From: an uncultured Lachnospiraceae bacterium
Lineage (GTDB): Bacteria > Bacillota > Clostridia > Lachnospirales > Lachnospiraceae
Length of the DNA: 56,399 nucleotides
NCBI GenBank assembly: GCA_947589095.1
Contig: CANQBX010000020.1
Coordinates: forward strand, 1-56,399
Reading direction: 5' to 3'
In this document: piece by piece, positions 19,327-51,478 of the stretch
How positions within the stretch are numbered: position 1 is the first letter of the stretch
Layout: every line of letters starts with the position of its first letter
Notes under the pieces: model-generated
Told to the model about the DNA's origin: nothing
Seen by the model: the letters and a program-made list of their open reading frames with translations, nothing else
The model's database searches: none
Translations under genes and position numbers: made by a program

Positions 19327-21249
19327 ATGAAACAAGCAAAAAGATGTCTGGCGCTTATGCTGGCGCTGACAATGCTTCTGATGTCGTCTCTGACGGCCGT
19401 GGCTGCGAATAAAGGCTGGCATCAGGTGAACGAAAAGGATTGGGTATACCTCGATGAGAACGGCGATCCGGTAACCGATGATTGGAGACAGTGGATTGAT
19501 GGCGAGTGGTATTATCTGGGATCGGACGGATTCATGGTAATGGATGAACTGATCGATTGGAACTCAAACCGCTACTATGTAGGACCGAATGGCCGGATGG
19601 CCCATGACGAGCTGGTCACGTACGAAAAGGACGGCCAAACCTACTATTTTACTGGAGACGGCAGCATGGCGTCGAATAAGTGGATCCAGTTTGAAGAAGG
19701 GTACCGCTATTTTAACGCAGACGGGCATATGCTTAAGGATGCATGGCATCAGGAAGAAGACAGGCGGTATTATCTGGGCTCCGACGGCATCATGTTCGCG
19801 AATAAGCTGACCAAGCCCGATGCCAATGGCGACATCTTCTATTTAGGAGAAGACGGCGTTATGGTCACCAGGAGCTGGATCTACCTGAATAATGAGGTTT
19901 ACTATTATTTTGGGAAAGACGGCCGGGCGGCTCGCAATGGCTGGAAAGAGATTGGCGAAGGCCGTTATCATTTTGAGGACAGCGGGATCATGAGCGCGGA
20001 GGCCTGGGTTTCGGACGATGGCGGAATGCGCTATGTGGATAAGATGGGTGAGATTGTTAAGGATACCGTCATCTCTAAGGATTCGCAGCTGGTCTATGTG
20101 AATAAGGAAGGATACCTTGAAGAGACTTTCGCCGGAACAGTAGTGAAAGATGGAATTACATACACCTTCGAAGACGGGAAGGCGGATATAAGCGCTACGG
20201 AGATCGCGACTCCGTCAGATGCCGGTAAGGTGGAGGATATGCTGGGTACGCTGGATCAGCTGAACAAGAGCGGGGCGGATACACTTCTCCGGGCAGAAGT
20301 GGCGGATGCGCTGTCCGCAGGCGCCAGAGAGCAGAAGTCTCAGCTTAACGAGGAATTGATCTGTGAACTGGAAGAGGTTCTCGCTGCGGCTTATGGTATT
20401 AGTGATAGTGTTGTCAGCGGCTTGGTGGAAGCAAGTCCCGCGAACGCCGATTCAGACACCTATATGCAGGTATCGGCGACCGGTCTGATCCTGGCATCCG
20501 GGTACAAGTACGGGGATAATATAGCGGATTACAAGCTGCTTGTAGAGCAGGCGACTCCGGGAACAGCGGAGCGGGTTACGGTGGATGTGAAGCTGATGAT
20601 CAATAATGAAGAAGAAGAGTTAAAGGCGCCTGTCCGTCTGGAGCTCACGCCGCCCGCGGTCTTTGCAGACGCTTATGATACTGCAAGATATACCTATCGC
20701 GTAGTGCATACCCATAATGGTACGGACAGAACGGTATCCGGCAAGTGGAATACAGACGATGACGGCAAATTGCAGACTGTAACCTTCGTGGCCGATGCCT
20801 TCAGCGAATTCGCTTTGATCGCCAGCCCGAAAAGTTCCGGCACTACCCCGGTCTATAGCAATGGCGGCGGCTACAGCCGGACCGTCTCGGCGGCAACCGG
20901 CAAGTGGGTGCGCGCGGCCGACGGCGTCCGCTGGTGGTATCAGTATGCGAACGGTACCTATCCGGCCGGCGGCTGGGCTCAGCTTGACTGGAACGGCGTA
21001 AAGAGCTGGTACTATTTTGACGCGGAAGGCTACATGGTAACCGGATGGGTCATCGACGGTGATTATCGTTATTACCTGCATCCGGAATCGGACGGAACGC
21101 AGGGATATATGTACACCGGCTGGCATTTGATCGACGGCAAGTACTATTACTTCCGTCCCGAGAGCGGCGGCCCGCAGGGCTCGCTGTTCCTGAACGGAAC
21201 CACGCCGGACGGCTACGTGGTAGACGCGAACGGCGTCCGGATCCAGTAA
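19327..21249 (+). CDS. Secreted cell-wall-binding repeat protein
   Basis: 640 residues. A signal peptide ends near AVA at residue 27. About eleven Trp/Tyr/Gly-rich repeats (DEWYYLGSDG-like, roughly 20 residues each) fill 30-270, and five or so more fill the C-terminus (about 525-625). They belong to the CW_binding/choline-binding-like class that attaches proteins non-covalently to the wall. The middle (about 280-510) has no recognised catalytic motif; it has a helical part and a beta part ending AFSEFALIASPKS, as seen in clostridial surface adhesins. The extreme C-terminus PDGYVVDANGVRIQ matches that of the protein at 50075. RBS CAGGAGGGAAG. Confidence 0.85.
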   Translation: MKQAKRCLALMLALTMLLMSSLTAVAANKGWHQVNEKDWVYLDENGDPVTDDWRQWIDGEWYYLGSDGFMVMDELIDWNSNRYYVGPNGRMAHDELVTYEKDGQTYYFTGDGSMASNKWIQFEEGYRYFNADGHMLKDAWHQEEDRRYYLGSDGIMFANKLTKPDANGDIFYLGEDGVMVTRSWIYLNNEVYYYFGKDGRAARNGWKEIGEGRYHFEDSGIMSAEAWVSDDGGMRYVDKMGEIVKDTVISKDSQLVYVNKEGYLEETFAGTVVKDGITYTFEDGKADISATEIATPSDAGKVEDMLGTLDQLNKSGADTLLRAEVADALSAGAREQKSQLNEELICELEEVLAAAYGISDSVVSGLVEASPANADSDTYMQVSATGLILASGYKYGDNIADYKLLVEQATPGTAERVTVDVKLMINNEEEELKAPVRLELTPPAVFADAYDTARYTYRVVHTHNGTDRTVSGKWNTDDDGKLQTVTFVADAFSEFALIASPKSSGTTPVYSNGGGYSRTVSAATGKWVRAADGVRWWYQYANGTYPAGGWAQLDWNGVKSWYYFDAEGYMVTGWVIDGDYRYYLHPESDGTQGYMYTGWHLIDGKYYYFRPESGGPQGSLFLNGTTPDGYVVDANGVRIQ

Positions 21250-37174: not shown

Positions 37175-37211
37175 TTAAAAATAGAATTGTAGGTTGAAGG
37201 AACTGCGGGAA

Positions 37212-39785
37212 ATGAAGAAAGCGGAGTTTTCATCGGGTTTTGTTGTGGTTTTCCTGCTTTATGTATTGTGGGTATGGCTGGAGGACGCGGTTGATTTCCT
37301 CTTTTATCTGGCCGGGCTCGAGACTCCCCTGGCCGCTCCGGCGGGAATTGTCCTGATGCTTCCTGTGCTTTGGTGGATATACCGCCATTGCGGGACAGGG
37401 AAGCTTCAGGAGAGGTCCTGGTTTGACCTGGCGGCGGTTCTGGCGTTTTCCCTGTTTTTCTTCGTGAAGGCGCTGCTCCCGGACCAGAGTACGGATGTGG
37501 CGAATTACCATATTCTTCTGCAGGAGCCGGTATGGCGGAACATGACGGGCAGGGATCTGATGCCGGGCTCCTTCCAGGGTTTTACCTTCCCGCTGGCGGA
37601 CAGGCTGTTCTGGCTGTTCCGCAAGGCCCTCGGCTATCGGATGGGAACCGCGTTCAATCTCTGGTCGGTTCTTCTTATCTACCGGCAGCTCAGAGGACTT
37701 CTGGAGCTCCTCTGCGGCGGCCGATGCAGGCGGCTCCAGCCCTTGGCCGCGTTTCTTATAACAGCCCAGTACGACCTTTTGATGCAGCTGTCCGGCTATA
37801 TGGTGGAGATACCGGCGGTCGTGCTTCTGCTGGAAAGCGTTTATTTCCTGCTGAAGGAATGCCGGGGGAAAGAAGAAATGGCCGTATTTGCGGCGCTCCA
37901 GGGATTTCTTGTGGCGTTTAAGATGACGCAGGTCGTTTTTGTACTTCCCCTTCTGGCGCTCTATATCGCGAAGAACAGGAAGGCGGTCACGGCGCCGGTA
38001 TTTATTGCCTGTTTCGCGGCGGGAGCGCTGCCGGTATCCATTTATCTGATCCATAATACGGCGCAGACCGGCAATCCGATCTTTCCGTATTATAATTCGC
38101 TGTTTAAGTCGGTTTACTCGTCGGAGACGAATTTTAAGGATATGCGGTGGGGCGCGACGAATTGGGCGGAGATCATTCTGTGGCCGGTTTACGCGGTGAT
38201 AAGGCCGGCGTGGCGGCAGAGCGAGCTCCCGAATCCGTACACGCTCCCCTACGGAGCCGCGTGGTGTATGGCGGGGGCGTATGCGCTTAAGCGGGCCGCC
38301 GCCGCGATAAGACGGAGGAGGGACGGAGAAGGTTATACTTCCTTATATCTGCTTCTCGGCGGTTTCGTCCTGCTGTCGTCCCTGCTGTGGAGCGCTGCCA
38401 CAGGACACAGCCGTTACTATATGGCCGGGTTTATGGTTCTGCTTTTGTGGGGCTGTTCGGCCGCGGTCCGGTGTTTCGAAAGACCGGCTGTCCGGACGGC
38501 GGCAGCGGCGTGCATGCTGGCGCTGATCCTGCCGGGACCGGTCTGGTACGGCTTCCGGTGTCTGGACGGTATAGAATGGAGCTGGCGTCCGTCTGTATTT
38601 GAGAATCAGGAATTATATAAAGCGCAGCTGTCCCTGATCGGACACGACAGAGTTTTCGGAAATCTGCAGCAGCGCGGGCACAGCGAAGAGATTCTTCTTC
38701 TGGACAACAATTCCCATTATGCGGCGCTGTTAAACAGCCGCTGTCCGATCCTGTCCTGGAAGGCCATGGACGATAAAAACGATGCGCTGTATGAGGAATG
38801 GGCGCGGCGTCTGACGGAGGACCTGCGGGAGGACGCGGTTATGGATACGATGGTCAGCGCTGCCAGGGGGTATGTTCCGGATCTGGGGATTATTTATGCG
38901 AACCGTCTGGGCGTAAAGCGGATCGAGCGTATTGAACAGAATATATTCTGGGATAAGGACATTTATCTGGTACAGGTTCAAAATCCCTCCGAAAGCTTCT
39001 GCGACCTCACGAAACGCAGGCCGGCGGCGCTTGTAAGGGACGGGATCACGGATATCGGACAGACGGAGGAGGAGACGGAGGTACAGGTTTCGATCGGTGT
39101 GCCGGGACTTAAGGATCTGGTTGAATGGGGACTCGATTCCTGCGGAACCGGCGTTGTGACGGTGTATGGAACCTGGGAGACCGCGGATGCGGCGAAATCG
39201 GCCGGCAGCCGGACGGAGGAAACGGACGCGGCCGTGCTTGCACGGATACCGGTAGATCTGGCGGATGCGGCGGAGCAGGAGATTACGGTCGTGCTGCCGC
39301 GGAAGACGGGAGATGTCTGCCGCCTCGGCGCGTCCCTTGCGCTGGAGAACCGGGAGAGCCTTGCGCCTCTTGCGGGAGTATGGGTCCGGACATCCCTGAC
39401 CGGAAGACAGAAGCTGGGAGACAGCGATTATTATATCCGGGAGGACGGTTCGGTCAGACGCGGCGTTTATGAGGACGGCGGACGGCGGTATGCGGTCAAT
39501 TATTTCGGTATACTCAAAAGCGGCTGGCAGCAGGACGGAGAAAACTGGTATTATACCGATCTGGAGGGGAATCCGTATACAGGCTGGCTGAATGCAGACG
39601 GGGACTGGTATTATCTGGCGGAAGATGGTATAATGCAGACAGGATGGATTCATCTGGACGCGGATTATTATCTGGATGATTCGGGGAGAATGGTTACAGG
39701 CAGCCGCAGAATCGACGGCGTCCGGTATGAGTTCGACGCTGACGGACGGCTGAAAACAGATATTTCGGAGGAACAGGATGGATAA
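37212..39785 (+). CDS. GT-C-like membrane protein fused to wall-binding repeats
   Basis: 857 residues. The N-terminal 430 residues contain about ten hydrophobic helices and, in the first large loop, an acidic motif DQSTDVANYH, which suggests a polyprenyl-phosphate-sugar-dependent GT-C glycosyltransferase. A soluble region (about 440-730) follows without recognised motifs. The last 120 residues are five or so CW_binding-type repeats (ENWYYTDLEGNPYTGW, DWYYLAEDGIMQTGW). This fusion is unusual, since such repeats are normally on secreted proteins. ATG 37212 (AAGGA upstream) is preferred over TTG 37194. It overlaps the GT2 gene by 8 bases, indicating coupled translation and a shared pathway. Confidence 0.75.
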   Translation: MKKAEFSSGFVVVFLLYVLWVWLEDAVDFLFYLAGLETPLAAPAGIVLMLPVLWWIYRHCGTGKLQERSWFDLAAVLAFSLFFFVKALLPDQSTDVANYHILLQEPVWRNMTGRDLMPGSFQGFTFPLADRLFWLFRKALGYRMGTAFNLWSVLLIYRQLRGLLELLCGGRCRRLQPLAAFLITAQYDLLMQLSGYMVEIPAVVLLLESVYFLLKECRGKEEMAVFAALQGFLVAFKMTQVVFVLPLLALYIAKNRKAVTAPVFIACFAAGALPVSIYLIHNTAQTGNPIFPYYNSLFKSVYSSETNFKDMRWGATNWAEIILWPVYAVIRPAWRQSELPNPYTLPYGAAWCMAGAYALKRAAAAIRRRRDGEGYTSLYLLLGGFVLLSSLLWSAATGHSRYYMAGFMVLLLWGCSAAVRCFERPAVRTAAAACMLALILPGPVWYGFRCLDGIEWSWRPSVFENQELYKAQLSLIGHDRVFGNLQQRGHSEEILLLDNNSHYAALLNSRCPILSWKAMDDKNDALYEEWARRLTEDLREDAVMDTMVSAARGYVPDLGIIYANRLGVKRIERIEQNIFWDKDIYLVQVQNPSESFCDLTKRRPAALVRDGITDIGQTEEETEVQVSIGVPGLKDLVEWGLDSCGTGVVTVYGTWETADAAKSAGSRTEETDAAVLARIPVDLADAAEQEITVVLPRKTGDVCRLGASLALENRESLAPLAGVWVRTSLTGRQKLGDSDYYIREDGSVRRGVYEDGGRRYAVNYFGILKSGWQQDGENWYYTDLEGNPYTGWLNADGDWYYLAEDGIMQTGWIHLDADYYLDDSGRMVTGSRRIDGVRYEFDADGRLKTDISEEQDG

Positions 39786-41710: not shown

Positions 41711-43288
41711 ATGGGCGGACAGAACGGATGGGGAGGAGAAGACATCGCGGAGCAGATTCGCAGGGCGTTAAGCGAGGCGCTGGAGACGAGCAATTTCGAT
41801 CAGCTGAACCGGACGATCGGAAATACCGTAGATTCCGCTCTGGGAGAAGCAAGGGAGCAGTTTGAGAAATACCGGAACCGTGCGGAGAAGCGCTCGGGGG
41901 AACCGGTGGATACCCAGAGGGCGAACTGGGTGCCTGAGGAGGCGCCTGCCTCCGAGAGCGGCTCCGCCGGTTCGTCTTCCAGCTTCGCGCCGCATACTGC
42001 CGCGGGAGAAGATGACAGCTGGAAACGCGGTACGCGGATGCCGGGCGACGACGGGAGATATCGTTACGGCGCGGGAGAGACCGTCGGAACTGCCGCGGGA
42101 GCGTATACGGACAGCCGGGGCTGGAAAAGCACGTATAGTTCCGAGCCGTATACGTACGGCGGGCAGACGCCGGTTTCGGGGAATTCGGATTACCGCGTAA
42201 GATGGAAGGGCCGGATATCGGGAATTCTGATGAGCGCGTTCGGCGCGCTGGGGACGTCGACGTTCGGGATGCTCACGTTTCTGATGATTACTATTTCGCT
42301 GATCGCCATCGACGGGGCGGCCGGATGGGTCATGGTGCTGCTTCTGGCGCTTGTGACCGGCGGATTCGGACTGATGCTGTGGAGCGGCATCGGCCGGTAC
42401 GGCCGCGTTCACAGGCTTAAGCTCTATCTCGATGAGATCCGGCGCGTCGGAAGGCCCTACTGTGAGGTCGGCCGTCTGGGCCGGGCAGCGGGGCGCGGAG
42501 AGAGTTTCGCAAGGAAGGATCTGCGGAAGATCCTGGCGCTCGGAATGCTTCCGGACGCGCGGATGGATGAGAATGGGACGTACCTGATGATGGACGCGGA
42601 GACCTATCATCAGTACGAAATGTCGCAGAAGGCCTTAAAGGAGCGGCAGGAGCAGGAGCGCTTACAGAATCAGCAGGAGGATGCGAAGGCGCGCGAAGCG
42701 ATGGCGGCGGATAAGGCCCGGAAGAGCCCTGAGAGCGCGGGCGCGGGCGGCGCGCAGGCGGCGGAGGCGCCGGACGCGAACGGCGGCTGTGCTTCTGCGG
42801 ATGAGGCGGCGGCCGCGGCCATTGCCAGAGGCGAGGAGCAGATGGAGACACTGGACCGGCTGCGGCAGTCTCTGCCGGCCTGCGCCATGACGGATAAGCT
42901 GCTCCGTCTGGACCGGGTGCTGGAGCGGCTCTTCGAGACGCTGCGCAAATATCCGGATCAGCTGGACGAGCTGGAACGCTTCATGGAATATTATCTGCCG
43001 ACCACGGTGAAGCTGGTGACGGCATATAAGGAATTTGCATCTGTGGAGTTTGCGGGAGATAATATAAACAGCGCGAAGAAGGAAATCGAGGAGACCATGG
43101 ACACGATCAACGGGGCCTTTGAGAAGCTTCTGGACGATATGTACGAGGATACGGCCTTCGATGTGATGACCGACGCCTCGGTACTCCAGACCATACTGAA
43201 GCGGGAAGGGCTGACGGAGGGGGATTTCCGCAAGCCCGACGCGGCGGCAGGGAATGAGGCGGATGCAGACTGCAGCACAGAAATTTAA
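41711..43288 (+). CDS. XpaC-like protein (5-bromo-4-chloroindolyl phosphate hydrolysis family)
   Basis: 525 residues. A disordered Ser/Gly-rich N-terminal part (about 50-155) precedes two close membrane helices (about 168-220: GILMSAFGALGTSTFGML and GWVMVLLLALVTGGFGLML). The C-terminal helical domain contains MEYYLPTTVKLVTAYKEF and GDNINSAKKEIEETMDTIN, the XpaC (PF10112) signature. An Ala-rich coiled coil (about 310-375) links the parts. Despite the name its biochemical role is unknown; it regularly precedes a TelA protein, as here with 20 bases between. AGGGAGGAT precedes the ATG. Confidence 0.88.
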   Translation: MGGQNGWGGEDIAEQIRRALSEALETSNFDQLNRTIGNTVDSALGEAREQFEKYRNRAEKRSGEPVDTQRANWVPEEAPASESGSAGSSSSFAPHTAAGEDDSWKRGTRMPGDDGRYRYGAGETVGTAAGAYTDSRGWKSTYSSEPYTYGGQTPVSGNSDYRVRWKGRISGILMSAFGALGTSTFGMLTFLMITISLIAIDGAAGWVMVLLLALVTGGFGLMLWSGIGRYGRVHRLKLYLDEIRRVGRPYCEVGRLGRAAGRGESFARKDLRKILALGMLPDARMDENGTYLMMDAETYHQYEMSQKALKERQEQERLQNQQEDAKAREAMAADKARKSPESAGAGGAQAAEAPDANGGCASADEAAAAAIARGEEQMETLDRLRQSLPACAMTDKLLRLDRVLERLFETLRKYPDQLDELERFMEYYLPTTVKLVTAYKEFASVEFAGDNINSAKKEIEETMDTINGAFEKLLDDMYEDTAFDVMTDASVLQTILKREGLTEGDFRKPDAAAGNEADADCSTEI

Positions 43289-43308
43289 AAAGAGCGGGAG
43301 GATAGAAA

Positions 43309-44481
43309 ATGGCACAGAATCTGGATGACAGGATCACGGAAACACCGGAACTGACACTGGAACCGTTCGGAGCGGAGACGGTTCCGGAGGAGAAAAAGGA
43401 GCTTCAGCCCACAGCGGCAGAGCCGGAAGCGGTTCAGGTGAAGCTGTCCGCGGAGGAGCAGAAGCAGGTGGATGAGTTTGCCGGTAGGATCGATCTGACC
43501 AATTCCAATATGATCCTGCAGTATGGAGCCGGCGCACAGAAGAAGATCGCCGATTTCTCCGATACCGCGCTGGAGAACATCCGGACCAAGGACCTGGGTG
43601 AGGTAGGCCAGATGCTTACGGATCTGGTCGGCGAGCTGAAGACCATTGACGAGGAGGAGGAGAAAGGGCTTTTCGGCATTTTCAGGAAGAACGCCAACAA
43701 GCTGTCCGCCATGAAAGCGCGCTATGAGAAGGCGGAGAATCATGTAAACCAGGTCTGTAAGATGCTGGAGAACCATCAGGTGCAGCTTCTCAAGGACGTG
43801 GCGGTCATGGACCGGATGTACGAGCTGAACCTGTCGTATCTGAAGGAGCTGTCCATGTATATTCTGGCCGGTAAGAAAAAGCTTAACGAGGTCAGAAGCA
43901 CGGAGCTGCCTGCGGCCATAGAGAAGGCGCGGCGCAGCGGCCTGCCGGAGGATACCCAGGCGGCCAGCGATCTGGGCAGCCTCTGCGACCGGTTTGAGAA
44001 GAAGCTGCATGATCTGGATCTGACCCGCATGGTATCGCTGCAGATGGCGCCCCAGATCCGGCTGGTACAGAATAACGACACGGTGATGTCGGAGAAGATC
44101 CAGTCCACGCTGGTGAATACGATCCCGCTGTGGAAGACGCAGATGGTGATCGCGATGGGCCTGAGCCATTCCACGGAGGCCGCTAAAGCCCAGCGCCAGG
44201 TGTCCGATACGACCAATGAGCTTCTGAAGCGGAACGCGGAAATGCTGAAGCTGGCGACGGTGGAGACAGCGAAGGAATCGGAGCGCGGCATCGTAGATAT
44301 CGAGACGCTGAAGACGACCAACCAGACTCTGATCACTACGCTGGACGACGTGATGAAGATCCAGGAGGAGGGACGCACAAAGCGCCGGGAGGCTGAGCAG
44401 GAGCTCGGAAGGATCGAGGAGGAGCTGCGGCAGAAGATGCTGGAGATGAGCCGTCAGAGGAGGCCGGACGGGCAGGCGTAA
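43309..44481 (+). CDS. TelA family protein (toxic anion resistance)
   Basis: 390 residues, soluble and mostly helical. Motifs of the TelA (PF05816) family include RIDLTNSNMILQYGAGAQKK near residue 60, KKLNEVR, and VSLQMAPQIRLVQNND with ALSTLVNTIPLWK-like sequence (IQSTLVNTIPLWKTQMV). The name comes from tellurite resistance, but in Firmicutes the XpaC-TelA pair is chromosomal and its role is unclear, perhaps membrane stress. GGGAGGAT precedes ATG 43309. A strong terminator follows. Confidence 0.92.
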   Translation: MAQNLDDRITETPELTLEPFGAETVPEEKKELQPTAAEPEAVQVKLSAEEQKQVDEFAGRIDLTNSNMILQYGAGAQKKIADFSDTALENIRTKDLGEVGQMLTDLVGELKTIDEEEEKGLFGIFRKNANKLSAMKARYEKAENHVNQVCKMLENHQVQLLKDVAVMDRMYELNLSYLKELSMYILAGKKKLNEVRSTELPAAIEKARRSGLPEDTQAASDLGSLCDRFEKKLHDLDLTRMVSLQMAPQIRLVQNNDTVMSEKIQSTLVNTIPLWKTQMVIAMGLSHSTEAAKAQRQVSDTTNELLKRNAEMLKLATVETAKESERGIVDIETLKTTNQTLITTLDDVMKIQEEGRTKRREAEQELGRIEEELRQKMLEMSRQRRPDGQA

Positions 44482-44642: not shown

Positions 44643-47600
44643 ATGAGACGGAAAGCAGCGTTATTTTTAGCACTCCTGATGGCTCTTGAAATGCCGGCTA
44701 CTTCTGCGGCAAAGGTCCGGTATACTCTGCCGGTCGTACAGATCCCGTCTGCGGAAAGTGAAGATACAGCGCCGGATGCGACGGCGCAGGCAGGACCGGA
44801 GACGGATACGGCGGCCGGCGCGGAGCATGAAACGGAACCCGCGGCAAAACCGGAAACGGAATCCGGAACAGAATCCGCGGAGGAATCCGGGACAAAGCCC
44901 GCTGCGGAGCCTGTAACAGAGCCGGAGACAGGATCCGGAGAGATTTCGGAGAATACGGATCCGGATGCAGAAATTCTGACGGCGACCCCGGCGGATGCTC
45001 CGTCGCTTTACGGTGTACGCCGGATCATGCTGGAGAAAACGGGAAGCCTTCGGATCGATATTCAGGGGGTCGTCGCCAGCCGTCCGTCCGTCTGGCAGGC
45101 GGAGCTTTATCCGTCCGGAACCGTTTCTTCGGAAGACGGTCAGGCGGGGCAGTTCCGTTCTGCGATAGAGCTGCCGGCCGCGGAAGAAGGCGTCTATGTG
45201 CAGGCGTCCGCTATCCTGGAGGATATTCCGTCCGGAACCTATGACCTGAAGCTGACACCCATGTCGGAGGAGGACAGCTCCTATCTCCCATACGAGCAGA
45301 AGATCGAGATCGGTACGAACCTGACCACGATCCATCTGATGAATGACAAGCCGGAGCTGCACGGATACACGGATCCGGCCGCGGCGCAGAAGTTCGGCGT
45401 TCTTATCATGGGCGATGTGAATGCCGACGGCGTTCTGGATAAAACGGATAAAGAGAGCCTGATGGATATCATTTCAGGAAAAGAGGAGACTCACAGCGTT
45501 TTCTATGACAGGGCCGACTTAAACGGCGACGGCCAGGTAGATCTGCTGGATGTGGCTGCGTTTGCCAGGTATTATGGGACCGGACTGGAAACGCGCAGGG
45601 CCAGGCCGGCAGAGACGCTTGTGATCCGCGCGGAAGAGGTGGAAGAGAAGGCGGAGACCGGGACCGAAGTAGAGGGCTCCCTGACCGGCGCGATGACCGG
45701 AGAGGGCAAAACGGTTGCTTTAAAGAGCACCGGGGCGGCGATCAGCGCCGCATCGCCGGTACAGATTTCCGCGGAATTTGCGGAAGCCAGGAAGATGGGC
45801 GGATTCGTGATCGATCCGGTGGAAGGCTCCGACGGGAGTATCTGCGACGGACAGGTCATTGTGGAAACGGAAGAAGGCGCGCGGAAAACATTTACGGTTC
45901 GCAACGGGCAGGCGGTCCAGGCAGTCAGCGTGATCCGCGCCCGATTCGCGCTCAATACGATCGCCGCCCAGGATGAGATGCTGCAGGGAATGCCGATCGT
46001 GATCGATCTGAAAGGCCAGGTCGCGGTAAAGAAGATAACGATCCGGGTCACAAAGACCATGAGCGGGGGCAGTCTGGCCGAGATATCGGATGTGGAGTTT
46101 TACGGAGACATGGCGGACCGGATACCGGAGGCGCCCATGTCCGTACCCGAACGGCTGGTGGTGGAGAACGGAAGCGAGTGCTTCACGCTGTCCTGGAAGA
46201 AGATGCCCAATGTGACCGGCTATGAGGTCACGGTTTCGGGTACGGACAGTAAAAACCGGAAGGCCGCGGATACATATCAGGTGGAGACCGCCGGCCTGGA
46301 GGTGACGTCGTTAAACGGTTCCGACCTTGTCAACGGCAGCACCTATGAGGTGGAGGTCCGCTGCGTCAACGGCGCCTGGAGAAGTCAGGCCGCGAAGGTG
46401 AGCGCCGCTCCGAGGGCCATGGGCCTGCCTCCGGCTCCGGAGAATCTCGTGATCCAGTCGGGCTACCGGCGGCTTATCATCAGCTGGAAGGATATGAAGG
46501 ATACTAAAACCTATAACCTGTTCTATCGGGTCGCGTCCAGCGATAACACGCCTTACCAGTCTGTGAAGGCGATCGAGGGAACCAAATATGAGCTGGCGGA
46601 TCTGCAGGACGAGACGGAATATGAGTTCTACCTGACCGGCGTAAACCCGATCGGCGAGGGGCCGGAATCCCTGCATTACACCGCTTCCACGATCAGTCTG
46701 AATCTGCCGGAGACGCCGAATTACAAGCTGATCAATACGGTGGTCAGCGGAAGCGCCGTGACCGCCCATATCCAGTCTGTAACCTACGGCGGCGACGGGG
46801 ACCGCCAGTTTGATATCGTGGACGGAAGGTATGACACCTCCTGGGTGCGCGAGGACTGGGACGCGGGTTATACCTATCCGGATGATAAGAAGGCGCCCAT
46901 TGTGACATTTGACCGGGAGTATGAGATGGATACGGTCCTCGTTATCCCGGATGAGGCGCAGACCTATGAAATGACCGGCGCGACGCTGCAGTACTGGTCC
47001 GCGGACGGAACGAAGACGGCGCTTCCGACTACGATGCGCCGGAAGGTCAGCAGCAACAACAAGCTCTACTATACGTTCCAGACGGAGGAGCCGTTTAAGG
47101 CTGTGAAGGTGCAGCTCCTTATGGGCAATTCCTACGGACATGCCAGAAGGATCAGCGTCGCGGAGATGAAATTCTATTATTATGATCCGATCGAGCACGA
47201 GATCCTGGATCTGTATACGGACTCCTACCATGTGGTTCTGCGCAGCGGCGTGACCGTCGCGGATATCAGCGCCCTGCGGGCGAAGCTCAGGATCAAAGAC
47301 AGCGTCAGCGGTGAATATCATCCGAGAAAAGCGGAGCTGGAGACCGAGCTTGACAATGCGGAGAAGATTCTGAAGGAGGGCGCCGGAGCGCAGATCCTGG
47401 CGGTCGATCCGAAGGATACGGCCCGGTCCGACAGCCATATTACCTTCCGCGGCGGCCTGAATACATATCAGCCGCTCGGCGTGACTGCCCTGGCCGGGGA
47501 GACCCTGACCATCTACGTAGGAGGGCCGATGGTGCGAAACGGGGATACTACGCGGCTTGAACTGATCCTTTCCCAGTATCACGGCAGCAGCAATGCGGTC

Positions 47601-50078
47601 TTTAAGTCGCTCGGATATCTGAAGGGCGGGCCGAACGAGATCACCGTTACCGCGCTTGACAATATGGATCTGGAGCGGGGCGGCCAGCTGTATGTGGAAT
47701 ATACCGGCGCGTCCGGCGCGGAGAAGTACGGCGTGCGGGTCAGCGGCGGACATAAGGCGGCGGTTCTGGATCTGTCGGATGTGACGGATACCGCGCAGAG
47801 AGTGAATCTGGCAAGGGAATACCTGCTGGAGGTGACCGCGCAGGAGGAAGCCGCCCGGGCCGATCATGTTAAGGACCATCCGAAATATGAATGGCAGCCG
47901 GAGAACTGCATCTATCAGGGTACGGATATCCTGACGCGCTACGGCATGATCTCCACCGCGGCGACGCAGGTCCTGGAAGGGCTGGGAAGAGGCAGCGTCG
48001 ACGCCATGGCGCAGAAGCTGGAACAGTCTATGCGTGCCTTCGACGAGATGATGGTCCTGTTCTATCAGCACAAGGGCTTAAGTGAGGATAAGGAGGCGCC
48101 TGCCTGCAACAGGATGCCGGTAAGCCGCATCAACATCCGCTACCAGAGAATGTTCGCCGGAGCGTTCATGTACGCGGGCGGAAAGCATATCGGCATCGAG
48201 TGGCCGGAGCTGAAAGGCATGATGGGCGGCGTGCCTGTGCAGGCGGACGGCAGCGGAAGATATACGGGAATCGGGCAGTATTTCGGCTGGGGCATCGCCC
48301 ATGAGATCGGCCATGAGATCAATGAGGGCGCTTACGCGGTAGCCGAGGTGACCAACAACTATTTCTCGGTACTGGCCCAGGCGAAGGATACCAATGATTC
48401 CGTCCGGTTCCAATACGGCGATGTGTTTAAAAAGGTAACATCCGGAACGAAGGGAAAGGCGTCCAACGTCTTCGTCCAGCTGGCGATGTACTGGCAGCTG
48501 CATCTGGCCTATGACCTGGGTGGCTATAACTATAAGACCTACGAGGATAATGAGGAACAGCTTGCGAACCTGTTCTTCGCGCGGGCGGACTCCTATGTCC
48601 GCAATCCGGACAGCGCGCCCGGCGCGGAAGGCAATAAGCTGTCCCTGTCCCAGGCGAATACGGATAACAAGCTGATGCGTCTTGCGGTGGCCGCCGCAGA
48701 GAAGAACATCCTGGATTTCTTCGTCCGCTGGGGATTGGAGCCGGACGCGGGAACCGTGGCCTACGCCGGACAGTTTGAGAAGGAAACGCGCGGCATATGG
48801 TTTGCCAATGACGAGATCCGGGCCTGGCAGCTTGCGAACGGGAGCAGCGCGAATCAGGCGGCCGGCGCGACCGTCAGGGGAAGCATAAACTATACGGAAG
48901 GCAGCAACCGGGTGACGCTTGAACTGTCCTCGGACAGTGACATCTGGATGTACGAGATCTACCGCTGTGAGCGGGTGAAGGACAGTATCGAACGCCGGCC
49001 GGTAGGTTACGCGGAAGCATTCGGCGGCGGAGATGCAGTATTTACGGACGTGATCGGAACGGTCAACAATCATGCATTTACATATGAGGTTATAGGTTAT
49101 GACCGGTGCCTGAACCCCACGGCGAAGACGGAGATCGGATCCGTGAAGGTCTGCCACGACGGGCAGCTGGACAAGACGCTCTGGACGGTCAGTACGAATC
49201 TGGTCAATGACAGCCTGGAACAGCCGAACGAGGAGCATCCGGATACGTCGAAGCAGCCGGGAACCGAGGCGATGATCGACGGGGACGACGGAACTGAATT
49301 TACCGGCAGTACGGCGGACGGTTCCGATCCGGAGATCATTATCCACCTGAATCAGCCGGAAACGGTTACCGGCCTCCGGTACCGGGCCGGATCCGGTACG
49401 GCGGTCACTGATTTTGAGATCAGCGTAAGCGAGACCGGCAGCGACTGGAAAACGGTTACTGCCACGGAGAAACGGTTCCAACCGGACGGAAGCGGAAACA
49501 GCACGGTCTGGTTCCACGATGAAAAGAATCTCTATACTTATGACGCCTCCTATGTGCGGATCCGGGCCAGGGGCCAGGGCCATACGGCCGTTTCCGTCGC
49601 GGAACTGTCCCTGATGGGGCAGACCGGCGATAATATCGATCTGGCGCCGGCAGGAAGCGTCGGAATCCTGAAGGCGGATTTCAACGGGGCGAACGGCGTC
49701 CGTATCCCGGCAGGTTCCCTGATCTTTACCGGCCGGTATAAGGGCAATCCGGCGTTTAACGCGATGCTTCTGTGGGATGAAAACGGGCACCTGGTAGGGG
49801 GAACGGACGCGGACGGCGATGTCCGGGCCGTACAGGTTATTTTCGCGCCGGATCCGGAGAACGGACTTTTGGGAGAGGTCAGTTCAGGTACCTGGGTCTA
49901 CTATATCGAACCGGCCTATGCGGGCACGGTGAATGCTTCCCGGGTGCGGGCGGAGCTGTACCGGGTAGACAACGCGCTGACCAATGAAGGAGAACGGCTT
50001 GTCAGTTCCACGCTGTTCGTGGATATGCCGGCGGAGCTTCCGCAGATCATGCTGAATGAGGGAGGCGGTCTGTCATGA
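44643..50078 (+). CDS. Secreted multidomain M60-family metallopeptidase with dockerin-like module
   Basis: 1811 residues, exported (signal peptide ending near AKV, residue 24), then an acidic Glu/Thr/Pro-rich linker to about 110. In order: a beta domain; a dockerin-like module at about 250-312 with two EF-hand loops (DVNADGVLDKTD and DLNGDGQVDLLD); a discoidin-like region; two fibronectin III domains (about 500-685); another discoidin-like domain (about 695-855); the M60 domain; and a C-terminal discoidin-like domain (about 1530-1660). The zinc motif is H1220-E1221-x2-H1224, with E1235 in AEVTNN as third ligand, as in mucin-degrading M60 enzymes. There is no sortase signal or wall-binding repeat in the protein itself. 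ATGA overlap with the next gene. Predicted substrate: mucin-type glycoproteins (inference). Confidence 0.88.
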   Translation: MRRKAALFLALLMALEMPATSAAKVRYTLPVVQIPSAESEDTAPDATAQAGPETDTAAGAEHETEPAAKPETESGTESAEESGTKPAAEPVTEPETGSGEISENTDPDAEILTATPADAPSLYGVRRIMLEKTGSLRIDIQGVVASRPSVWQAELYPSGTVSSEDGQAGQFRSAIELPAAEEGVYVQASAILEDIPSGTYDLKLTPMSEEDSSYLPYEQKIEIGTNLTTIHLMNDKPELHGYTDPAAAQKFGVLIMGDVNADGVLDKTDKESLMDIISGKEETHSVFYDRADLNGDGQVDLLDVAAFARYYGTGLETRRARPAETLVIRAEEVEEKAETGTEVEGSLTGAMTGEGKTVALKSTGAAISAASPVQISAEFAEARKMGGFVIDPVEGSDGSICDGQVIVETEEGARKTFTVRNGQAVQAVSVIRARFALNTIAAQDEMLQGMPIVIDLKGQVAVKKITIRVTKTMSGGSLAEISDVEFYGDMADRIPEAPMSVPERLVVENGSECFTLSWKKMPNVTGYEVTVSGTDSKNRKAADTYQVETAGLEVTSLNGSDLVNGSTYEVEVRCVNGAWRSQAAKVSAAPRAMGLPPAPENLVIQSGYRRLIISWKDMKDTKTYNLFYRVASSDNTPYQSVKAIEGTKYELADLQDETEYEFYLTGVNPIGEGPESLHYTASTISLNLPETPNYKLINTVVSGSAVTAHIQSVTYGGDGDRQFDIVDGRYDTSWVREDWDAGYTYPDDKKAPIVTFDREYEMDTVLVIPDEAQTYEMTGATLQYWSADGTKTALPTTMRRKVSSNNKLYYTFQTEEPFKAVKVQLLMGNSYGHARRISVAEMKFYYYDPIEHEILDLYTDSYHVVLRSGVTVADISALRAKLRIKDSVSGEYHPRKAELETELDNAEKILKEGAGAQILAVDPKDTARSDSHITFRGGLNTYQPLGVTALAGETLTIYVGGPMVRNGDTTRLELILSQYHGSSNAVFKSLGYLKGGPNEITVTALDNMDLERGGQLYVEYTGASGAEKYGVRVSGGHKAAVLDLSDVTDTAQRVNLAREYLLEVTAQEEAARADHVKDHPKYEWQPENCIYQGTDILTRYGMISTAATQVLEGLGRGSVDAMAQKLEQSMRAFDEMMVLFYQHKGLSEDKEAPACNRMPVSRINIRYQRMFAGAFMYAGGKHIGIEWPELKGMMGGVPVQADGSGRYTGIGQYFGWGIAHEIGHEINEGAYAVAEVTNNYFSVLAQAKDTNDSVRFQYGDVFKKVTSGTKGKASNVFVQLAMYWQLHLAYDLGGYNYKTYEDNEEQLANLFFARADSYVRNPDSAPGAEGNKLSLSQANTDNKLMRLAVAAAEKNILDFFVRWGLEPDAGTVAYAGQFEKETRGIWFANDEIRAWQLANGSSANQAAGATVRGSINYTEGSNRVTLELSSDSDIWMYEIYRCERVKDSIERRPVGYAEAFGGGDAVFTDVIGTVNNHAFTYEVIGYDRCLNPTAKTEIGSVKVCHDGQLDKTLWTVSTNLVNDSLEQPNEEHPDTSKQPGTEAMIDGDDGTEFTGSTADGSDPEIIIHLNQPETVTGLRYRAGSGTAVTDFEISVSETGSDWKTVTATEKRFQPDGSGNSTVWFHDEKNLYTYDASYVRIRARGQGHTAVSVAELSLMGQTGDNIDLAPAGSVGILKADFNGANGVRIPAGSLIFTGRYKGNPAFNAMLLWDENGHLVGGTDADGDVRAVQVIFAPDPENGLLGEVSSGTWVYYIEPAYAGTVNASRVRAELYRVDNALTNEGERLVSSTLFVDMPAELPQIMLNEGGGLS

Positions 50079-51478
50079 GAGAGAAGAAGAGAAATGGCCG
50101 GCCGTTCGCGGGTCTGGCCGCGGCGGTATTCGGGATAATATTCCTCCTGGCGCTTATGCCTTTCGGGATAACGGCGCGGGCGGAGACGGGCCATATCAGC
50201 GGCGCCGCCTCCTGGAAGAAGGCCGTAAAGGACGGGCAGGCGGAGCTGTCGGTTCAGCTGGTCCGGCAGCTGGGACTGGGGGACATTACGGCGATCCGGG
50301 TGAATGTGGCTTTTACCGCGGAGGATCTTTCCGATGTGAAATCCGTGGAGTTTACGTTTGACGGCGGCTGGGACGAAAGCCTGATCCGGGAATATGTATA
50401 CGACGGGGACCGGGGATTCCTTACGATCGTGATCGCAGGAAGCGGGAAGATCATGGAGCAGGCGAATATCCGGAAGCTGGGTACGCTTAAGACGGAAGCG
50501 GACGGGAGACTGAGCGTTTCCGTCAATGGCGGAGAGATCGTCGCGGACGGAGAGCTGTTTAATATCACGTTCGTTCAGAACAGTTCGGTGACGTTCGGCG
50601 GATCGCAGGGATCTTCCGGCAGCGGCTCGGGCGGCAGTTCTGGCGGTTCAACCGGCGGTTCAGGCGGCTCAGGCAGTTGGGGCAGCGGAGGCGGCGTAAG
50701 CCGCAGATCCTCCGGCGGCCCGAGCGGGACGGGGTCGGGAGGCGTTTATCAGATCCCTTCCGTGTTGGCTTTGGAGACGCCCGGAAGCTGGGAGAAGTCG
50801 GGAGAGGCTTTCTGGAAATTTAAGCTTGCGTCCGGAGCCTATGCGAAGAACACCTGGGTGCTGAACGGCGGCCAGTGGTATCATCTGGGCAGCGACGGCA
50901 TTATGAATACCGGCTGGTATCAGGAAGGAGGCGTCTGGTATCTGCTGGCGCCTGACGGCCATATGAGGAAGGGCTGGCAGGAGGTTGATAAGGTCTGGTA
51001 TTATCTCGGAGGAGATAACGGCCAGATGAGGACCGGCTGGCTTTATGACGGAGGGTATTGGTATTATCTGGCTGCGAGCGGCGCCATGTGTACGGGCTGG
51101 CAGCAGATTGCCGGGAACTGGCATTATTTCAATGCTGCGGCGCCGGTTCCGCAGCCTGTCCGCAATACGCAGACCGGTCAGGTGGAGATGTCCACGGCGG
51201 GCCAGCGGCCGTTAGGGGCGATGTATGCCGCGGCAAAGACGCCGGACGGTTATGAAGTAGATTCGGCCGGAGTCCGCAGGCAGGAAGGAGCGTCCGGGCC
51301 GGCCGCGGGCGGCGTATCAGGTCCGGTCGTGAGCCAGGGACCGGGCGGCACGCTGCCGGCCGCAGGCGGCGTATCGGGTCCGGCCGTGAGCCAGGGACCG
51401 GGAGGCACGCTGCCGGCCGCGGGCGGCGTATCGGGTCCGGCCGTGAATCCGGGGCCCAGAAGTCCGCTGATCCCGTGA
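50075..51478 (+). CDS. Wall-binding protein with cohesin-like N-terminal domain
   Basis: 467 residues. The N-terminal hydrophobic segment (about 12-31) is a signal peptide ending ARAE. Residues about 35-170 form a beta-rich domain with cohesin-like features (AIRVNVAFTAEDLSDVKSVE, DRGFLTIVIAGSG, LGTLKTEADGRLSVSV); this is a pattern resemblance, not a proven match. A Gly/Ser linker (about 172-225) leads to about five wall-binding repeats (WYHLGSDGIMNTGW type, about 255-360), the signature TPDGYEVDSAGVRRQ shared with the protein at 19327, and a 19-residue tandem repeat at the end. It overlaps the M60 gene by ATGA, so the two are made together. Confidence 0.78.
   Translation: MREKKRNGRPFAGLAAAVFGIIFLLALMPFGITARAETGHISGAASWKKAVKDGQAELSVQLVRQLGLGDITAIRVNVAFTAEDLSDVKSVEFTFDGGWDESLIREYVYDGDRGFLTIVIAGSGKIMEQANIRKLGTLKTEADGRLSVSVNGGEIVADGELFNITFVQNSSVTFGGSQGSSGSGSGGSSGGSTGGSGGSGSWGSGGGVSRRSSGGPSGTGSGGVYQIPSVLALETPGSWEKSGEAFWKFKLASGAYAKNTWVLNGGQWYHLGSDGIMNTGWYQEGGVWYLLAPDGHMRKGWQEVDKVWYYLGGDNGQMRTGWLYDGGYWYYLAASGAMCTGWQQIAGNWHYFNAAAPVPQPVRNTQTGQVEMSTAGQRPLGAMYAAAKTPDGYEVDSAGVRRQEGASGPAAGGVSGPVVSQGPGGTLPAAGGVSGPAVSQGPGGTLPAAGGVSGPAVNPGPRSPLIP
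51307..51462 (+). repeat. 57-bp coding tandem repeat
   Basis: About 2.7 copies of a 57-bp unit encoding GGVSGPAVSQGPGGTLPAA at the C-terminus of the wall-binding protein. The copies differ by only a few bases, so copy number probably varies between strains. Confidence 0.85.

Follow-up and report, generated by a model that had tools for sequence, protein, structure and literature searches.

A predicted cohesin-dockerin dock for a single M60 peptidase on the cell surface of Lachnospiraceae

The window analysed here comprises the 56,399 nucleotides of contig CANQBX010000020.1 (positions 1 to 56,399) from an uncultured Lachnospiraceae bacterium, assembly GCA_947589095.1. It carries the gene of an M60 peptidase (44643..50078, 1811 amino acids in the list of open reading frames (ORFs)) and, directly downstream, the gene of an anchor protein (50075..51478, 467 amino acids) that consists of a cohesin-like domain, a Ser/Gly-rich linker and wall-binding repeats. 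Both genes, like all features located below, lie on the forward (+) strand, and both products appear to be secreted, with signal peptides judged by eye. Most likely, the peptidase and its neighbour form a private one-enzyme cohesin-dockerin dock on the cell surface. In this arrangement, the secreted peptidase would have no anchor itself, its calcium-bound X-dockerin segment (residues ~132-310) would plug into the cohesin-like domain of the co-translated neighbour, and the repeats of the neighbour would fix the complex on the cell wall. An earlier note on this DNA had proposed such docking from an ATGA overlap of the two reading frames, which is present at 50075..50078, and from the apparent domains of both proteins. 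This reading is supported by our analysis, with the physical binding itself being a prediction.

The plug of the proposed dock is recognised by Pfam. Residues 257-310 of the peptidase (45411..45572) match Dockerin_1 (PF00404) with an E-value of 2.7e-6, over the cut-off, and contain two calcium-loop/helix repeats with both loops intact, in agreement with the dockerin-like EF-hand pair that had been noticed at about residues 250-312. It is the sole dockerin match in the host genome (4.1 Mb in 192 contigs, 97.6% complete), even at E-values up to 1. To judge the conservation of the loops we used an alignment of 41 M60 proteins, window included, which omits fused, truncated and the two most divergent M60 proteins. 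Calcium loop 2 (DLNGDGQVDLLD, residues 292-303, 45516..45551) is kept in 41 of 41. The pattern of calcium loop 1 (DVNADGVLDKTD, residues 258-269, 45414..45449) is in place in 34 of 41; four proteins (L068, L084, L125 and L134 in our numbering of loci) have threonine at the third position, and the loop looks degenerate in L070, L071 and L074. In L070 and L071, the degenerate loop 1 together with the intact loop 2 hints at one-sided binding. Chance EF-hands were ruled out by the invariably kept loop 2 and the conserved gene pair.

Directly before the dockerin lies a beta domain resembling an X module (residues ~132-248, 45036..45386), as judged from an AlphaFold2 model and a profile match. A 17-sequence profile of the dockerin region matches solved dockerins among the sequences of the PDB. 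The first match is the X-dockerin chain 4wi0_B (E 1.3e-9) and the fourth is 4u3s_B (E 4.9e-9); both are named type II in the titles of their entries, and both matches cover profile positions 55-183, including part of the preceding beta domain. The AlphaFold2 model of residues 128-325 has a mean predicted local distance difference test (pLDDT) of 88.7 and a predicted template modelling (pTM) score of 0.86.

The socket is recognisable at the level of its predicted fold. For residues 37-179 of the anchor protein (50183..50611), Pfam gives no match better than E 0.046, and no sequence match to PF00963 or to known cohesins was found. Because sequence alone gives no cohesin match, we call the domain cohesin-like and regard it as a fold-level relative. 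It was modelled by AlphaFold2 from 16 sequences, three of which (L072, L073 and L078) were added according to the position of their genes and to inspection by eye. The model (pLDDT 92.7, pTM 0.86) is a jelly-roll beta fold as in cohesins, all beta except for a short helical turn. In a Foldseek search against the PDB, 64 chains matched at E-values up to 0.001. The best 50 of them comprise 44 cohesin or cohesin-complex entries, which take up all of ranks 1-32. Of the 44, 38 were classed by entry title; the titles of 4fl4 (five chains) and 3kcp (one chain) do not mention cohesins, and these six were classed with the aid of a profile search. The six other matches among the best 50 are YcnI (twice), the F-spondin reeler domain (twice), Cnm and AspA. 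The best matches are cohesin-like modules of Clostridium perfringens, such as 2jh2 (E 2.2e-6, template modelling (TM) score 0.58, 15% identity). The resemblance to cohesins, which had been made out by eye in the earlier note, is thus borne out by the predicted fold and not by sequence profiles; a different, non-cohesin fold, which the note had allowed for, did not emerge from AlphaFold2 and Foldseek.

The most conserved positions of the domain form its core. By strand alternation, five conserved residues on strands 3, 5 and 6 (73, 75, 109, 119 and 121) should point outward. Cohesin structures bind dockerins via strands that include 3, 5 and 6. Judged in this way, from strand order and not from coordinates, the conserved outward residues appear to fall among the dockerin-binding strands.

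The pairing of plug and socket is conserved. Among 397 sampled genomes of the family Lachnospiraceae, a six-sequence profile of the cohesin-like domain finds matches in 22, at one place each; in 19 of the 22 the match is in the gene immediately after an M60-dockerin gene, and in the other three it is fused to one. Starting from the enzyme instead, an M60 profile finds 38 near-full-length loci (more than 400 bits) in 37 genomes; weaker matches were left out. One of these loci is divided between two contigs, and another is truncated at the end of its contig. The host genome has a single M60 match and a single match to the N-terminal domain of the anchor protein. Of the 38 loci, 33 encode the domain in a gene of its own that follows on the same strand, three carry it fused and two are followed by an unrecognised secreted protein, so that 36 of 38 have the domain by the widest profile. 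Among the 33 separate cases, 19 were found by the six-sequence profile in whole genomes and 14 by a 16-row profile on nearby ORFs (E 1.9e-18 to 7.2e-7). As a control, a 13-row profile lacking the rows placed by position was run on the 1,255 ORFs of the loci that were read. It finds 40 of 44 separate partners at E 0.001, with L073 (E 0.2), L132 (E 0.0018), L140 and L141 being missed. Apart from the partners, the fused M60 proteins are the only ORFs that it matches at E 0.1 or better. The same profile recovers L072 (E 1.8e-6) and L078 (E 5.1e-7).

Further pairs were seen at 17 loci from a genome collection, which include Enterocloster hominis, a Hungatella metagenome-assembled genome (MAG) and several 'Lapin' MAGs; some of these loci are contigs that also occur among the other genomes counted. 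Fourteen have domain and enzyme in separate genes (the six-sequence profile finds 11; L072, L073 and L078 were assigned by position), one is fused and two stop before the downstream gene. In all 44 separate pairs the genes share a strand, with a 4-base overlap in 11 and a gap of more than 30 bases in five; apparent long overlaps in L076, L087 and L138 result from taking the earliest possible start. A genome of the same genus (L034) has the flanks of the window (TelA, VanW). Outside the genus of the window, the flanking genes vary among the loci read and the gene pair stays. An ordinary neighbour of no functional link was ruled out on the grounds that the flanks vary between the genera read. 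No relative of the M60 or the anchor protein turned up in scans of viral contigs.

What follows the cohesin-like domain differs between relatives. In the window, the anchor protein continues with choline-binding-type wall repeats (Choline_bind_1, approximately 50852..51142), the only Pfam family over the cut-off in this protein and the feature that it shares with choline-binding wall proteins. Five stretches match at E-values up to 1 and four at up to 0.01, and five repeats had been counted before. Choline-binding repeats occur in 15 of the 44 separate partners (E up to 0.01; L064 below the Pfam cut-off), a sortase-like tail in 10 by a crude script, and a membrane segment in nine, eight of them terminal by a crude script and one (L084) further in, by eye. 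From this exchange with sortase-like and membrane anchors, the repeats probably hold the anchor protein on the wall of the producer itself. In three fused proteins, a dockerin stands after the cohesin-like domain, where an anchor would be (by Pfam in L088, by eye in L075 and L093). Because the domain is constant and relatives carry a sortase-type tail, membrane helix or second dockerin behind it, docking the enzyme would be the conserved job and the place where the dock is fixed the exchangeable one. The genomes of L088, L075 and L093 have 28, 25 and 39 dockerin matches, respectively. The fusions of M60, cohesin-like domain and C-terminal dockerin lie at 3914-10210 of L088, 2-5161 of L075 (identical to L090) and 935-7027 of L093. 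Of these, L088 and L093 still have the internal dockerin; L075 starts after that region, and its genome has a contig end with overlapping sequence (L143) that carries a dockerin.

Several observations weigh against docking on the neighbour. The support for it is gene pairing and fold, and the interface is only proposed. The TM-scores to cohesins are moderate (0.41-0.59, normalised by query length) at 9-15% identity. None of the 16 members of the cohesin-like domain has a Pfam cohesin match, the profile of the domain matches no cohesin among the PDB sequences, and hhalign gives a probability of 7-9% against 18 Pfam-type cohesins from genomes of the family. No X-dockerin is among the 50 Foldseek matches listed for the model of the X-dockerin, and the comparison with X modules rests on the profile match. 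The two most divergent M60 loci (L140 and L141, genomes G242 and G179) have no recognisable partner; the N-terminal part of the secreted protein downstream is beta-rich by eye, reaches an hhalign probability of 0.2% against the domain alignment, and both were counted as misses. L132 and L073 are weak partners once the rows placed by position are removed (E 0.0018 and 0.2). Ten of the 44 partners (L131-L137 and L139-L141) lack a recognisable anchor; they carry fn3 (L131, L134, L135 below the cut-off, L136, L139), Big_2 (L133, L140, L141) or weak matches only (L132, L137). In a mirror-tree comparison of 41 pairs, the cohesin-like domain correlates with the dockerin (0.472) no better than with fn3 (0.480) or the middle region (0.478) of the peptidase, and partial correlations are likewise not distinct. 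Dockerins that can be seen in G280, G367 and G392 escape Pfam, and the single Pfam dockerin match of G284 is on another contig than its M60 gene. Finally, the host genome has one Pfam-type cohesin elsewhere, on contig C118.

This C118 protein (G000:C118:5960-6238; L001 1399-3165; 588 amino acids) contains the cohesin, a cadherin-like domain and, by eye, a membrane segment. The cohesin scores 31.4 bits in the genome search and 24.0 in the scan of the whole protein, where the cut-off is 24.1. The product of the gene next to it has a cadherin-like domain, too. The M60 dockerin could dock on this membrane-anchored cohesin, which would leave the neighbour to bind, for example, substrate or wall glycans. 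No other partner is seen for the C118 cohesin, since the M60 protein has the one dockerin match of this genome. We nevertheless consider this explanation unlikely. Pfam cohesins (E up to 0.01) are not tied to M60 loci, being found in 22 of 37 M60 genomes versus 145 of the 360 others. The domain of the neighbour, with its predicted cohesin fold, is beside or within the M60 gene at nearly all loci. Moreover, 15 of the 37 M60 genomes have no Pfam cohesin match, and in 10 of the 15 there is a single dockerin match, all such counts being lower bounds. This match was located inside the M60 gene in seven of the 10 (all but G013, G264 and G173). One of the 10, G046, is a single contig of 6.9 Mb (contamination estimate 8), with its one dockerin match inside the M60 gene. 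As Pfam finds no cohesin, no socket other than the neighbour is visible there.

Alternatively, the EF-hand segment might be a calcium-stabilised spacer and the cohesin-fold domain a separate adhesin, the two genes being paired through a common mucous surface. The internal position of the dockerin, with the beta domain before it and the remainder of the enzyme behind it, would suit a spacer, as would the three degenerate first loops, the similar mirror-tree values and the partners lacking a recognisable anchor. The intact loop 2 in every aligned protein speaks against it, and so does the variation of the partners in most parts except the cohesin-like domain. A dockerin and a cohesin fold, which are partners elsewhere, would also have to recur in one gene pair by an improbable coincidence. 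We regard this explanation as quite unlikely. It is very unlikely that the cohesin-like domain serves as a chaperone or inhibitor by binding to the X-like domain, fn3 or the peptidase body. The correlations of the X-like, fn3 and middle regions with the domain are similar to that of the dockerin, and no interface evidence singles out the dockerin, but several of the top fold matches are cohesin-dockerin complexes and the anchors found at the rear of the domain point to attachment, not inhibition. Docking of the enzyme on its neighbour thus remains the preferred reading; we infer physical binding of the X-dockerin to the cohesin-like domain, with a need for calcium. Overall, the genomic data and the predicted fold support this putative dock well.

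The closest fold match of the modelled domain is to the C. perfringens X82 complexes (2jh2, 2vo8, 2w1n), non-cellulosomal cohesin-dockerin complexes of glycoside hydrolases that were reportedly described by Adams in 2008. In C. perfringens, secreted enzymes for host glycans carry single cohesin modules; the pair in the window likewise combines a single cohesin-like module with a secreted enzyme, presumably for host glycans, and neither system has a tandem-cohesin scaffoldin. In contrast to C. perfringens, the cohesin-like domain of the window is on a protein with no catalytic Pfam match, beside one M60 peptidase. In the type II arm of cellulosomes (Acetivibrio, Clostridium thermocellum SdbA), the cohesin is on a cell-surface protein. 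The plug made of an X-like domain and a dockerin is shared with this arm (4wi0_B, 4u3s_B); on the other hand, no primary scaffoldin is seen in the window system, the plug is internal to the enzyme, and the X-like fold is unmatched among the Foldseek hits listed. The Limousia mucinolysome, a multi-scaffoldin system, combines 21 dockerin-bearing carbohydrate-active enzymes (CAZymes) and dockerin-bearing peptidases in a mucin setting, and its cell-anchored scaffoldin cSca5 has an N-terminal cohesin and a C-terminal LPxTG wall anchor (PMC12997984). The pair in the window resembles this system in its N-terminal cohesin-like domain, wall anchor, dockerin peptidase and presumed mucin setting, reduced to one enzyme, and differs in having one dockerin match and one adjacent socket (PMC12997984). 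A cellulosome or mucinolysome proper was rejected for the host genome, in which the searches found no multi-cohesin scaffoldin and one match each to the dockerin, the cohesin-like profile and the Pfam cohesin. A 2012 survey of M60-like/PF13402 proteins reports the Dockerin type 1 domain for 2 of its 415 proteins, marks the drawn Clostridium and Bacillus sequences as lacking evidence of an anchor, and does not use the word cohesin in its main text (PMC3267712). In common with the window protein, it describes M60 together with CBM32 and fn3 in gut microbes (PMC3267712). No title or abstract opening that we found describes an M60-dockerin/cohesin-like pair, most subscription papers lying outside the coverage.

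We lean towards a wider interpretation, in which Lachnospiraceae and neighbouring Clostridia share an undescribed cohesin family that Pfam does not see. It would have spread among them as an M60 socket with interchangeable anchors and, in dockerin-rich bacteria, have been fused to the peptidase and given its own dockerin, so that the enzyme would either stand free on the surface or form part of a larger complex. If true, common gut bacteria use the cohesin-dockerin principle outside cellulosomes as a simple means of keeping one peptidase attached to the cell, and the surface retention of M60 enzymes that lack an anchor is explained. The pair would also offer a small natural plug and socket in many sequence variants. 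Two M60 genomes, G220 and G255, have 39 and 28 dockerin matches, respectively, and no Pfam cohesin match; they probably use cohesins unseen by Pfam, which suggests that cohesins are under-counted.

The remainder of the peptidase is that of a secreted, enhancin-like M60 metallopeptidase, with the X-like domain and dockerin being accompanied by fn3, M60 and F5/8 type C domains. The Peptidase M60 domain (PF13402, E 1.3e-10) spans residues 1126-1364 (48018..48734) and includes the zinc-binding motif HEIGHE...E (HEIGHE at 48300..48317); HExxH..E is found in 40 of 41 aligned M60 proteins. The sole protein lacking it is a second M60 copy (L092 3945-9293, G281:C35), in which the dockerin and the cohesin-like partner are kept. 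Pfam gives two fn3 stretches and an F5/8 type C (CBM32-like) domain at residues 1538-1655 (49254..49607). No wall-repeat or sortase family was found by Pfam in the M60 protein, nor was a sorting signal seen on inspection of its C-terminus by eye, as had been stated before. Characterised M60 peptidases cleave O-glycosylated mucin-type proteins. From the peptidase family, mucin-type O-glycoproteins may be the substrate here as well.

Upstream of the M60 gene, the window carries XpaC-like (Pfam Halogen_Hydrol) and TelA genes (41711-44481), and a TelA-like gene is likewise found by eye upstream of M60 in the same-genus genome L034. Two more proteins with choline-binding repeats are encoded at 19327-21249 and 37194-39785 of the window, the first of which has many repeats.

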